Shown piece by piece: positions 45,001 through 49,845 of a stretch of DNA of 52,592 bases; positions within the stretch are counted from its first letter, which is position 1; each line of letters opens with the position of its first letter. Location of the stretch: positions 1 to 52,592 of IMG/VR virus record IMGVR_UViG_3300017760_000007. One strand, written 5' to 3'. A program made the translations under genes and the position numbers. The notes under the pieces were generated by a model. That model was not told the origin of the DNA and did no database searches. It saw only the letters and a list, made by a program, of their open reading frames with translations. This DNA is from a virus.

Positions 45001-46890
45001 CTACGAGCGTTTTTTCCTAAAGCCATCTATTTCATGCTTATCTAATATGGCTTGTATGTCTTCATAATCTTGTCCACGATCTTCAAAGCCCTTCTGAAAT
45101 CCTCTACGGGCACCTAGATCAAGATGTATAAACTGTGGATTTACACCAATACCAGTAAAGCCTACTTGACTAGCCGCTACAATAAGGTCTTGTCGATTAA
45201 ACTCATCTGCTGAAATATCTACTGCCCATCCAGTATTATGCATAGTCACATTCATTGCGCCTTTAGTATCACCAATAGTTTCCATGATAAGGCGAGGAGA
45301 AGTGCCTGCTACGATATCAAAGTCCTCGTCTGCTTGCTCTGACATACGAATAACTCTGGCTAATACAAGTGGATTAGTATCTCGTATTTCATCTACTTCT
45401 TTGCCACCAAACATTGCGATTCTATCAGAATAACCAATACGCTCAGTAAGTCGAGTAGTGCCAACAAAACCATTTGAAAGGGCATCCATTATAATCTGTT
45501 GTTCTTCAGGTGTTTCTTTTCGCTCAGTTATTATATCTGCTTCTCGTTCAACAGGCTTAATCTCTTTTTGCTTCTTCTGCTCTTTTACTATCTCTTTAGA
45601 TTTCTCTATAACCTTTTCTTTCTTCTCTACTTTTACTTTCTCTTCTACTCGTATAGCACCGGCTTTAACTGCTTTCTGTGTAGTCTGTGCCTCTTGTGAT
45701 TTAAGTACTGTGACTTCAGCGGCAATACTATTTGCTGTACGATTTAGCTTCTGAGCAGGTGCCATAAGTTGACCTTGAAGGTCTTGTGCTTTCTGGCACA
45801 TTTTAAACATAAGATTAGAGACTGCTTCTGGAGTAAGTCTTTCAAATGAACTTGCTAGATTTGCTACAACTCCTTCAATGTCTTTAACGATATTACCAGT
45901 ATTTGCTTCACTCATAGCTTCAGTTATATTAGATACTTCCTTTGATATCTTTTTCATTACAGTACTAGCGGCATCACCAAGTCCTTTTATCGCAAGTAAT
46001 GTACCCCCAACAGCGGCTAAAGCAATGTTCTTAGCGGCTTCAAGTGCTTTCTTTACTACATTCTCTATAACACCAACAAGTGTTTCAAGTGTGGCACGTT
46101 GCTTCATTTGCTCTAATAGCTTCTTAGGGTCTTTCTCTAGTATATTAGTTACGTCTTGAACAAGTACTTTAGTATTATCAATAACAGCAAATGCCTTTGT
46201 TATCTTACTACTGACATCGTTAAATGCAGAGCATAAGGCATCTGTTAGCTTTGATCCAATGTTATTAGCGAAGTTAAAGTCTAGATTTTTCAATAACTTA
46301 GCAAGCAGATCAGGCAGTATTTCAAGTTTAAATGGTATTCTTCCAGAGAGTAAACCCGTTAGATTAGACGCTCTTTGTATCTCAGCAAGCAAATCAGTGG
46401 GTGGTTTTGTACTAATTTTACTACCACCAACAGGCGTACTTGCTCCAGAACCAGTGTCAAATGTCGAAACAGTCGAAGATGGTGTGCTAATTGGCTGTCC
46501 AGTTATGTCAGAAATAACGCCTAAGTCAGCATTTGTTGCGGCTCCATTAGGTAAATTAGCGTTAAATTTGACTAGTTCATCCTTGAGTTCAGTCATATTT
46601 ACGCCATTCGAAACAGCAAATTCAGCTAAATCAGTGTATGTAATACCATCATCACTATCAAATTTTGCCTGTAGTGAGTCAAGTTCACTTAAATCCATGT
46701 TAGATAATATGTTGTTTAGGGCGTTAGTAGACACCACTACAGTGTTACGATCAAGCACATCAAGGCTATTTTGATTTGCTAGAATGTCTAAATCAATGAT
46801 AGCCTCTTGTAAAGCGGCTGCCGATTCAGTTAATATTTCACTTGCACCCTTGCTTGCTAATGGTGTTGTGTTGTCACATATCTGACTCAT
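45001..46890 (-). CDS. Baseplate hub protein with C-terminal M15-type peptidase domain
   Basis: 629 aa. The N-terminal two thirds are mostly helical and Ala/Leu/Lys-rich. Residues about 415-450 are a Lys/Glu-rich stretch (VEEKVKVEKKEKVIEKSKEI) that probably forms a charged helix or linker. The C-terminus (about 505-610) looks like an M15/VanY-type peptidoglycan peptidase: MHNTGWAVDIS gives putative zinc ligands His551 and Asp558, and PQFIHLDLG gives His589. Such enzymes cleave peptide bonds in murein. The gene directly follows gp5, which shows no recognisable lysozyme domain, so this protein probably supplies cell-wall cleavage during injection (inference). The start overlaps the gp5 stop as TAATG. 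It could instead act in lysis, but its position argues for the hub. Confidence 0.75.
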   Translation of the reverse strand: MSQICDNTTPLASKGASEILTESAAALQEAIIDLDILANQNSLDVLDRNTVVVSTNALNNILSNMDLSELDSLQAKFDSDDGITYTDLAEFAVSNGVNMTELKDELVKFNANLPNGAATNADLGVISDITGQPISTPSSTVSTFDTGSGASTPVGGSKISTKPPTDLLAEIQRASNLTGLLSGRIPFKLEILPDLLAKLLKNLDFNFANNIGSKLTDALCSAFNDVSSKITKAFAVIDNTKVLVQDVTNILEKDPKKLLEQMKQRATLETLVGVIENVVKKALEAAKNIALAAVGGTLLAIKGLGDAASTVMKKISKEVSNITEAMSEANTGNIVKDIEGVVANLASSFERLTPEAVSNLMFKMCQKAQDLQGQLMAPAQKLNRTANSIAAEVTVLKSQEAQTTQKAVKAGAIRVEEKVKVEKKEKVIEKSKEIVKEQKKQKEIKPVEREADIITERKETPEEQQIIMDALSNGFVGTTRLTERIGYSDRIAMFGGKEVDEIRDTNPLVLARVIRMSEQADEDFDIVAGTSPRLIMETIGDTKGAMNVTMHNTGWAVDISADEFNRQDLIVAASQVGFTGIGVNPQFIHLDLGARRGFQKGFEDRGQDYEDIQAILDKHEIDGFRKKRS

Positions 46891-48407
46891 TACTCATCTC
46901 CAGTTGGCATTACGCCTGTAATATTTGGTCTAAGTCGTCTCACTACTGGTAAAACTTTTGCTTTACTTGCCGGCAATACGCCTGGTGAGACAACACTTAC
47001 CACTTCTGTCTCACTTACATACGAACTCTTGTTTGGTTTTTGCGTACTTCTAGCACCATCTGTAGTGCCAAATGTGCTATTAGAAGTGCTTGTTCCATCA
47101 CCATTTGCCATTTTAACGAAGTCATCTATACCAACTGTACCACCACCAGTACTGGCAATACCAATATCACCGGCTGATTTGATACCAATGACACCCCCAT
47201 TGAGGCTTAATGCAGTCGTTCCATCTGCTGATAAGTGCTTGGCATCAAGATGAAGTGTTGATAATGTATTGATTTCAATACCATGATGACCCGCATCTGC
47301 ATAAGGAACTGCCTGTTCCGACACTGCCGGCGTGCCGTTACTACTAATCTTAGTGTATGTTTCAGTGAATATGTTCGCCTTATACGAGTCTAAGTGCATA
47401 TCTCCATGTAGTGATTGTACATAGAAACCACCTTTTGTATCTTCAGTACCGGCTTTTATCTTGATATTTCCTACTGCACCCACGTTAATATCGTCTCCTG
47501 AGGCAAGTACAGAGATGCCATTTGCACTGACGTTCGTTTTTACCCCAGCATGAAGATTCATATTTGCCCGTGCTGTGACGTTAAAGTTCTCACATTCGAT
47601 GTCAAGATCACCATTAATATAGACCTTACCAGAGCCTGTTTCTACTTTCAGTGACCAATCTTCTTGTACATTTGTGTGTGAAGAACCTGTAACATAGGTT
47701 GACAAGACCCCATCAGTTGTGTTATACTGATCACCAAAGGACTTAACAAATATAGTGCCGTTCGGATCAATCTGAAACACGGAGCCCGAACTGTGGGACA
47801 TCAAAATGTAATCACTGGCTTCGCCTTCAGAGTTATCTCCCATCACAATAAAGTTATCGCCACTCTTAGAAGCAAAGACTCTATTATCAAAGTTATTCTC
47901 AGGCATAGCAATAGGTGGCTCATCAAACGTATCATCACTAAGTGCTTGTTTTATAAAAGATTCTTGAGACGCTCTCTGTATGAGTGTCTGCCCCTTGAGA
48001 ATGTCTTCACCCCCAATATAACGATGAAGTTCTGGCTTACCATAGTTGTGTATTGCTTCTGGTGGTAGATAACCATCTTCACCTGCTTCACCAGACTGCC
48101 CTGGTACGTTAAGATGCTGACCTGGTAATCTTCCCATAATCATAGGCTGTTGTGCTTCTGCTCCATCAATAAAGAAACCAAATACCCAATCACCTACGCT
48201 GGGAATAACTGGCGCAACACCATAAGAACCATCTAGTACAGTTGCCCAAGGCAAATCTTGTGTTGGAACACTATCTTCAATATCTTCACTAATACGAGGC
48301 GGATGTATACCAAAGGCACGAACACGAACTCGCCCGGCATTTGTCTTATCATAGATGTCTTCTACAACACCTACGAAATGCATCATATTATTAAATCCAC
48401 CGCTCAT
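46890..48407 (-). CDS. 5: Baseplate hub/spike protein gp5, no lysozyme domain seen
   Basis: gp5/VgrG-type central spike. Residues about 8-105 form the OB-fold: VGVVEDIYDKTNAGRVRVRA, PWATVLDGSYGV, GDWVFGFFIDGAEAQQPMIM and GRLPGQ. After a linker, the region from about 165 to 420 has short alternating strands (FQIDPNGTIFVKSFG, VYINGDLDIECENFNVTARA) typical of the triple beta-helix spike. I see no lysozyme-like domain between them, unlike T4 gp5. The reading frame can be extended one codon to GTG at 48410, but I choose ATG at 48407 because AGAGGATAA is well placed before it and it shares its A with the TGA of the preceding microprotein. The M15 peptidase gene follows with an overlap. Confidence 0.88.
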   Translation of the reverse strand: MSGGFNNMMHFVGVVEDIYDKTNAGRVRVRAFGIHPPRISEDIEDSVPTQDLPWATVLDGSYGVAPVIPSVGDWVFGFFIDGAEAQQPMIMGRLPGQHLNVPGQSGEAGEDGYLPPEAIHNYGKPELHRYIGGEDILKGQTLIQRASQESFIKQALSDDTFDEPPIAMPENNFDNRVFASKSGDNFIVMGDNSEGEASDYILMSHSSGSVFQIDPNGTIFVKSFGDQYNTTDGVLSTYVTGSSHTNVQEDWSLKVETGSGKVYINGDLDIECENFNVTARANMNLHAGVKTNVSANGISVLASGDDINVGAVGNIKIKAGTEDTKGGFYVQSLHGDMHLDSYKANIFTETYTKISSNGTPAVSEQAVPYADAGHHGIEINTLSTLHLDAKHLSADGTTALSLNGGVIGIKSAGDIGIASTGGGTVGIDDFVKMANGDGTSTSNSTFGTTDGARSTQKPNKSSYVSETEVVSVVSPGVLPASKAKVLPVVRRLRPNITGVMPTGDE

Positions 48408-48493
48408 CACTTATCCTCTAGTACACAATAGATACTATAACCTATTGATATTATTAAACATAATCCAAGAAAGTCGTTCCAAATCAAATCCAT
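48407..48493 (-). CDS. 28-aa single-pass membrane microprotein between hub genes
   Basis: A very short frame filling the only sizeable gap in the hub cluster. The translation is MDLIWNDFLGLCLIISIGYS followed by IYCVLEDK: a hydrophobic helix of about 17-20 residues with an acidic/Trp start and a charged end, typical of a single membrane span. Its ATG overlaps the stop of the gp27-like gene (TAATG) and its TGA overlaps the gp5 ATG (TGATG), so it is locked into the string at both ends; AAGGGCGG lies about 10 bases upstream. No homologue is known to me. It might be a membrane-active factor, or merely a coupling peptide. The tight junctions are the main support. Confidence 0.6.
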   Translation of the reverse strand: MDLIWNDFLGLCLIISIGYSIYCVLEDK

Positions 48494-49845
48494 TACGTTA
48501 GTCCGCCCTTGGTAATCACAATCTGTTGCTTAAAGCTGTCTTCATGAAAGCCATTCACCATCTCGGTAACAATGTATTTACCTGTTCTCTCATGATCAAT
48601 CTCTCTCGTGCCTGTAACAGTATTGCTAATCTTATATAGTTCAAGGTTTATGACTCGCCCAGGATACAACTTAATACGCCCATTAATCTCTAGAGCCATA
48701 GAGTTAACACCAAAGTGATAGTCAACAATAGGCTTAGCCGTATAGTTCTCATAGAAGTGTTGATAAGGCTTTCGCATATTCTGTTGCCCCGTAGACTGCC
48801 CAATCTGTGGAAAGTCTGTAATCAAATAAGACTCAGGCTGTGTAGAGGCAGCCATGTATGTGTCAAGAAAGGTCTGTGTATGCGTTAGCTTGACCTTCGT
48901 AGGCATCTCCTTGTCCTGATACTCTGTTGAGTAATCATAGTCTCGTTGGATTCGGGTCCTCGTTGTCGGATCGAGTTCCGTTATGGTCCTGCGATACATT
49001 CCCTCTTTCATATCACGAAACGTGTCGACCTTTGTGCCGTAACTGAAGTCGTTTACAGACTGTTGGGCAATCTTCTGACCCATTCCTGTGTTGTCTTCCA
49101 ACGTGTTGTAGATAAAATAAAGCGGGTTTTTATCATCCTCTTCTAGGCTCTCAATATCGCCGTATTTTTCGACCAGGTACTCAGGTGTACAAAAATAATA
49201 CTTCTCTCTTGTCTCAAAGAATCTATATAAAGATGTTTTATTCTTACTAGAGTAGGCTCTTCTAGATAAAAATTGCATTGCGGCATCGCCTCGTAGGTTT
49301 GGTATCACGAGAGATTGTTCTCCATCTGTTTCTTCTATGTCAATCTCTTTATCATAGTCTTCATTGCCTGTTAACATGAAGGTATCATAGATATCTCTTG
49401 CAATATCTGATATCTTTGTGTTATTATAGGACTTTCTTATTGATCTTTGATCGCCTTGTAGCTTTGATACTGAGCAGAATCTTACTGTGTACTTCATCAT
49501 TCTATCGTTTGTAGATGATGCGGGACCGATATCTTCGATGGCATATAGAAAAAATTTGTGCGTGGCGCTTTCACCATAGAAATCTGTATAGGTTAGTTCT
49601 ATTTCTTCTTCCCCAATCAACGGAACATTTTCTAATAGATTATCAGATTCATTAATAACAGCAAAGCCCGAGATAAATGGGCTTGACATTGATTCGTTCA
49701 AACCCCATGTTGAGATTGTCTTCGTGAGTTCAACATATTCTGGAAAGGAATTATTCTCGCTATCCGAATTAATGTTCTCGTCTAATAGAGGCTTTACCTT
49801 AAATGATTTAAGAGTATAGAAGCCTGCTTGAGTTGCTTTATCCAT
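48493..49845 (-). CDS. Probable baseplate hub protein (gp27-like by position)
   Basis: 450 aa. The N-terminal part (PEYVELTKTISTWGLNESMS, INESDNLLENVPLIGEEEIE, THKFFLYAIEDIG) has the strand-rich layout of tail hub proteins. A region around 130-160 (VSKLQGDQRSIRKSYNNTKI, SDIARDIYDTF) resembles the second hub domain, and the C-terminus (INGRIKLYPGRVINLELYKI, TGKYIVTEMVNGF) looks like the final barrel seen in gp27/gpD-type hubs. Identity with T4 gp27 is too low to be seen by eye, so the call rests on fold-like pattern and place: between gp53 and gp5, where the gp5 partner is expected. The start overlaps the gp53 end by 8 bases. Confidence 0.65.
   Translation of the reverse strand: MDKATQAGFYTLKSFKVKPLLDENINSDSENNSFPEYVELTKTISTWGLNESMSSPFISGFAVINESDNLLENVPLIGEEEIELTYTDFYGESATHKFFLYAIEDIGPASSTNDRMMKYTVRFCSVSKLQGDQRSIRKSYNNTKISDIARDIYDTFMLTGNEDYDKEIDIEETDGEQSLVIPNLRGDAAMQFLSRRAYSSKNKTSLYRFFETREKYYFCTPEYLVEKYGDIESLEEDDKNPLYFIYNTLEDNTGMGQKIAQQSVNDFSYGTKVDTFRDMKEGMYRRTITELDPTTRTRIQRDYDYSTEYQDKEMPTKVKLTHTQTFLDTYMAASTQPESYLITDFPQIGQSTGQQNMRKPYQHFYENYTAKPIVDYHFGVNSMALEINGRIKLYPGRVINLELYKISNTVTGTREIDHERTGKYIVTEMVNGFHEDSFKQQIVITKGGLT

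Follow-up and report, generated by a model that had tools for sequence, protein, structure and literature searches.

A stretch of DNA of 52,592 nucleotides from a marine phage (IMG/VR record IMGVR_UViG_3300017760_000007, here called the window) carries, between two baseplate hub genes, a 28-codon frame that very probably encodes a real, translationally coupled membrane microprotein. Our sequence comparisons indicate that this microgene is protein-coding, because its frame stays open and its substitutions are protein-like across relatives, and that it is a small, horizontally exchanged cassette within a translationally coupled junction, which has been exchanged, replaced or lost among related phages without a matching change in the hub genes. 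The best explanation overall, which we put forward with moderate confidence, is that the product would be a single-pass membrane microprotein of accessory function, whose position brings its synthesis to hub level and which probably acts on the host inner membrane.

The microgene, its neighbours and its coding signal

The microgene lies on the minus strand at positions 48407-48493 (stop codon included), with its ATG at 48493 and its TGA ending at 48407, and codes for the putative single-pass membrane peptide MDLIWNDFLGLCLIISIGYSIYCVLEDK, an assignment made from frame, conservation and substitutions. Exactly as the preliminary description had claimed, the frame has 28 codons, contains one hydrophobic helix (FLGLCLIISIGYSIYCVL) and is coupled to the genes on both sides; upstream the TAA of the gp27-like gene shares one base with the microgene ATG (TAATG), and downstream the microgene TGA shares one base with the gp5 ATG at 48407 (TGATG). 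The insertion energy of FLGLCLIISIGYSIYCVL, about -1 kcal/mol on a rough additive scale with no positional terms, is compatible with a membrane helix. A Shine-Dalgarno-like site for gp5, AGAGGA (48414-48419, minus strand), falls within the last codons of the microgene (LEDK), and by tally this site is GAGG or TAAGGA in most relatives with the membrane-peptide family; judged from sequence, the family cassette thus usually carries the gp5 ribosome-binding site in its last codons. The microgene is itself preceded, at a 13-base spacing, by a weak Shine-Dalgarno-like site, AAGG (48507-48510, minus strand), within the conserved TKGG end of gp27, a region which also precedes gp5 in some cassette-less relatives.

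The gp27-like baseplate hub gene (450 aa; 48493-49845, minus strand) matches phrog_350 (tail protein; E 5.5e-45), and its AlphaFold model (mean pLDDT 62, moderate confidence) matches T4 gp27 (1k28_D; Foldseek E 7e-13), 1k28 being the T4 cell-puncturing device that contains this gp27 chain. The gp5-like spike gene (505 aa; 46890-48407, minus strand) matches phrog_430 (E 7.7e-33), and its product combines an OB domain with a long C-terminal region, with a Gp5_OB score of 23 bits that is slightly below the cut-off of 25 bits. No lysozyme domain was detected in this gp5 with PHROGs or Pfam. The gene after gp5 (45001-46890) has a C-terminal peptidase match (phrog_25247; Peptidase_M15_2 weak, below cut-off) and is likely a tail-associated lysin replacing the lysozyme domain absent from gp5. 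The same gene order (gp48-like, gp53, gp27, gp5, M15, gp25) is found in the window and in Sinorhizobium phage phiM12, in which gp27 and gp5 overlap directly with no gap.

The frame is conserved among relatives. In 15 of 15 close relatives (viral contigs) it is intact, 24-29 codons long and overlapping at both junctions. As had been suggested, the microgene is genuine, conserved and coupled, and of a kind that annotation misses. A wider set of 77 loci including the window, collected around gp5, contained the membrane-peptide family in 37 loci, a different insert in 15, a third peptide in two, an 11-codon remnant in two and no gap in 21. Relatives in which the gap is kept and the frame broken were sought and none was found; all 56 loci with a gap have an intact frame, which in two of them is only the 11-codon remnant. 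Length changes among relatives are multiples of three only. When the columns of the 28 distinct family DNA sequences were shuffled, none of 1000 shuffles matched the observed substitution score (mean 1.77 vs -0.27 shuffled), synonymous share (0.54 vs 0.20 shuffled) or absence of stops, and none of the remaining frames was stop-free across all rows. Pooled pN/pS for the family was 0.55, with pN below pS in 351 of 378 pairs. AT-rich sequence often contains short hydrophobic frames, but the shuffles, the interruption of every other frame and the confinement of length changes to the reading frame refute a chance open frame, which we consider extremely improbable. Synonymous divergence is lower in the microgene (0.44) than in its flanks (0.55-0.67), probably in part through movement of the cassette between phages, and in part perhaps through the last codons doubling as the gp5 ribosome site. 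Some constraint at the DNA level, or recent exchange, thus weakens the coding signal of the microgene and counts against our best explanation.

Members of the family share a common plan, with a mostly acidic N-terminal part that differs between members in both length and sequence, a helical core of about 18 hydrophobic residues present in all members, and a short, charged C-terminal end (LEDK and variants). Four residues, L13, S16, Y19 and Y22, spaced by three, are invariant in 28 of 28 sequences, and both Tyr codons are in use. Conservation along a helical face gave no significant period near 100 degrees (816/5000 permutations). On the same rough additive scale, again without positional terms, insertion energies were -1.0 to +2.2 kcal/mol for the family, whereas the repeat-derived peptides described below gave +5 to +10, and the family is accordingly predicted to consist of small single-pass membrane proteins. 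Among the loci examined the family occurs at this junction only, with one copy per locus. Searches of Pfam, PHROGs and PDB returned nothing for it, NCBIfam gave one weak, irrelevant match, and tblastn of two members against isolate phages gave no match and so no cultured carrier. A search of bacterial genomes returned one phage contig in a metagenome-assembled genome, which is of no use for assigning a host. A phage contig of the group, L138 (NHEZ01000047.1), is binned with the metagenome-assembled genome Cellulomonadaceae bacterium TMED98, most likely by mistake. No excess stability of RNA structure was seen in the slot in the three sequences tested. The peptide contains the pattern GxLL...YxxY, which we take to be KdpF-like; KdpF, the small subunit of the Kdp potassium pump, is a single-pass inner-membrane protein of about 29 aa. 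A resemblance to KdpF was dropped, as neither Pfam nor NCBIfam gave a KdpF match even at E values as high as 10; HMMER filters are weak for queries so short.

Turnover of the gp27-gp5 slot

Outside the wider clade of the window the two hub genes nearly always overlap directly by 1-4 bases or lie a few bases apart, and gapless, direct coupling is what other clades usually show, the isolate phiM12 included. Within the sampled group, slot content changed at least 10 times on the gp27 tree and 10 times on the gp5 tree. The clade of the window itself holds the membrane peptide, a dispersed-repeat insert, the third peptide, the 11-codon remnant or nothing, although the 17-20 nearest relatives of the window show no such variation, all of them having the membrane peptide in the slot. 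The sister loci L084 and L091 carry the membrane peptide and the other insert, respectively, with protein identities of 88% in gp27 and 92% in gp5. In L058 and L059 only the remnant MTYTIYCKDKE (11 codons) is left, between flanks that are 94-96% DNA-identical to those of L055, which keeps the full microgene. Conversely, the microgenes of L044 and L075 are 98% identical in DNA vs 64% for gp27 and 74% for gp5, the high identity starting at the gp27 stop and fading within the gp5 start, and those of L039 and L051 are 93% identical vs 73% for both hub genes. Because near-identical microgenes adjoin divergent hub genes and the identity is bounded at the junctions, the cassette is one that moves horizontally between phages, its edges lying close to where the genes end.

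The other slot insert consists of frames of 25-30 codons ending in LST[NS]ILKEFDS or LSTSILKDED. Homology between the membrane peptide and this repeat-derived peptide was unsupported (hhalign probability 0.1%). The DNA of the insert is a dispersed repeat of about 46 bases (GTTGCWACTTCTATTATAWCAYA, 10 or 11 bases, TTGTCAACAA), which lies mostly in the leader between gp5 and the next gene, sometimes in tandem, and in some phages also in the gp27-gp5 slot (L060:4550-4872, tandem with period 83; L080:4588; L091:2936 and 4598; L230:224; others). It was not found in the window, and no RNA fold was seen in two tested copies; it might be a promoter, a regulator site or a mobile element. The insert shows no protein-like evolution (pN/pS 1.07; 124/1000 shuffles), yet its coupled frame is stop-free in 9 of 9 slot copies and interrupted by a stop in 19 of the 29 copies outside the slot, counts in which the L152 copy is classed as a slot copy and the copies are not independent. 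As slot repeats are stop-free while most copies elsewhere have stops, selection seems to act on translation across the junction in its own right. A functional peptide cannot, therefore, be deduced just from an open coupled frame, and the repeat is a built-in control, with the membrane family passing the protein-selection test that the repeat fails. In L079 and L104 an extra 54-base insert sits inside the repeat-type insert, with the frame open over 44 codons and the coupling to gp5 kept.

Possible roles of the peptide

The microgene sits as a swappable cassette at the coupled hub junction. We propose that ribosomes completing gp27 would start again on the microgene and next on gp5, and that the peptide would consequently be made late and at about hub level. 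It would then insert into the inner membrane as a single-pass peptide, as others of its size do; the E. coli membrane protein YohP, of 27 residues (PMC7549839, PMC12719787), is recognised by SRP for insertion (PMC7549839). YohP and KdpF resemble the microgene product in length, single helix and short polar ends, but no sequence relation to them was found in Pfam, PDB or NCBIfam, and the microgene is phage-encoded in a hub operon. Once inserted, the accessory peptide may serve not as a structural part of the hub but late in infection, at the inner membrane or envelope of the host. Its most plausible effect would be to protect or condition the infected cell, with the tails of superinfecting phages as one example of what it could guard against. 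We favour protection or conditioning of the envelope by analogy with T4, which uses a dedicated protein against incoming gp5: Spackle (gp61.3) is secreted to the periplasm, binds the gp5 lysozyme domain and confers immunity to the tail lysozyme of a superinfecting phage (PMC7650644). The likeness would lie only in a possible working principle, the shielding of the infected-cell envelope from incoming tail tips, since the gp5 of the window has no detected lysozyme domain and the microgene product is a bare membrane helix; no sequence relation to the superinfection-exclusion proteins Spackle and Imm was found. Protection or conditioning of the envelope is the weakest step, a tentative suggestion by analogy, and no finding was specific to superinfection exclusion or to a named host target. 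That the peptide is accessory and not essential to the hub is, by comparison, probable.

The preliminary description had read the peptide as a possible aid to hub assembly, membrane passage or lysis. That reading is partly supported: the coupled membrane microgene is borne out, whereas a necessary hub role finds no support. As a helper of assembly or ejection, the peptide would anchor nascent hubs at the inner membrane or travel in the virion and aid the tail tip in crossing. Its gene sits exactly between two hub genes and is coupled to both, and it is fixed in the nearest relatives of the window, a uniformity that would likewise be expected if the peptide were useful to the hub in that subclade. 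T4 gp28, a protein of 17.3 kDa encoded beside gene 27 and an uncertain component of the hub or spike tip, is a precedent for considering small extra hub components (PMC3004832). The microprotein is likewise a small extra protein encoded next to a hub gene, but at about 3 kDa it is far from the 17-24 kDa of gp28 and gp26, to which no relation was seen by PHROGs or Pfam match. An essential component would be present whenever the hub genes are, but the peptide is absent, replaced or reduced in relatives. It is missing from most gp27-gp5 pairs, including one isolate, survives only as a remnant in L058 and L059 beside flanks 94-96% identical to those of peptide-bearing L055, gives way to a non-membrane insert in L091 and others, and occurs as nearly the same cassette beside hub genes of 64-74% DNA identity. 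Because close relatives lack the peptide and near-identical copies adjoin hubs that have diverged, we consider a structural hub role less likely than an accessory one at the host membrane. We regard a hub helper as unlikely but a serious rival, above all for the subclade of the window itself, all members of which carry the peptide.

The frame could also be open only to pass ribosomes from gp27 to gp5, with a functionless product. This fits the dispersed-repeat insert, stop-free in the slot without protein-like selection; the membrane family, however, shows such selection together with a conserved helix and four invariant residues, and bare junctions are coupled equally tightly in relatives, which leaves a pure spacer improbable for the microgene. 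Lower still do we rate a lytic or membrane-depolarising peptide of the holin-like or single-gene lysis kind. A single hydrophobic helix would suit it, and producing YohP lowers the membrane potential in E. coli (PMC12719787), but no holin or other family match was obtained in PHROGs, Pfam or NCBIfam, the context is a baseplate operon in which the peptidase-bearing gene after gp5 sits where a tail-associated lysin would, and the microgene is dispensable in close relatives. Nothing found pointed to lysis, and this part of the earlier reading is very unlikely.

Significance and other genes at the junction

The accessory membrane microprotein that we favour belongs to a new family of a known kind, the single-pass microproteins of phages and bacteria, and its setting, a swappable cassette in a coupled junction of structural genes, is uncommon. 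The usual gene-calling limit is 90 bases (the Prodigal default), and this sequence-supported phage family falls just below it, at a site that annotation leaves blank. At one junction of otherwise alike phages there is a protein-selected insert, a stop-free but unselected repeat, a remnant or no insert, which is a clean natural comparison. It puts two questions within reach of a test, the first being whether accessory peptides acting on the envelope are encoded in tail-hub operons, the second whether inserted DNA can become new genes through translational coupling alone. Speculatively, the gp27-gp5 junction of marine T4-like phages may be a cradle of microgenes, in which coupling forces any insert to remain an open frame, non-coding repeats are translated and can mature into real membrane microproteins or give way to them, and these then spread among phages as cassettes of about 85 bases; the idea draws on one junction, and we consider it doubtful.

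Other small genes were seen at the same place. Thioredoxin genes (WCGPC or WCPPC) lie between gp27 and gp5 at L203:1728-1973 and, two in tandem, in L209, about 570 and 270 bases before gp5. Like the microgene, they are small and packed closely at this junction, but they encode an unrelated soluble protein of about 81 aa (PF00085, E 2.7e-17). Small genes also occupy the gp27-gp5 junction in Caulobacter phage Cr30 and Pelagibacter phage Mosig.
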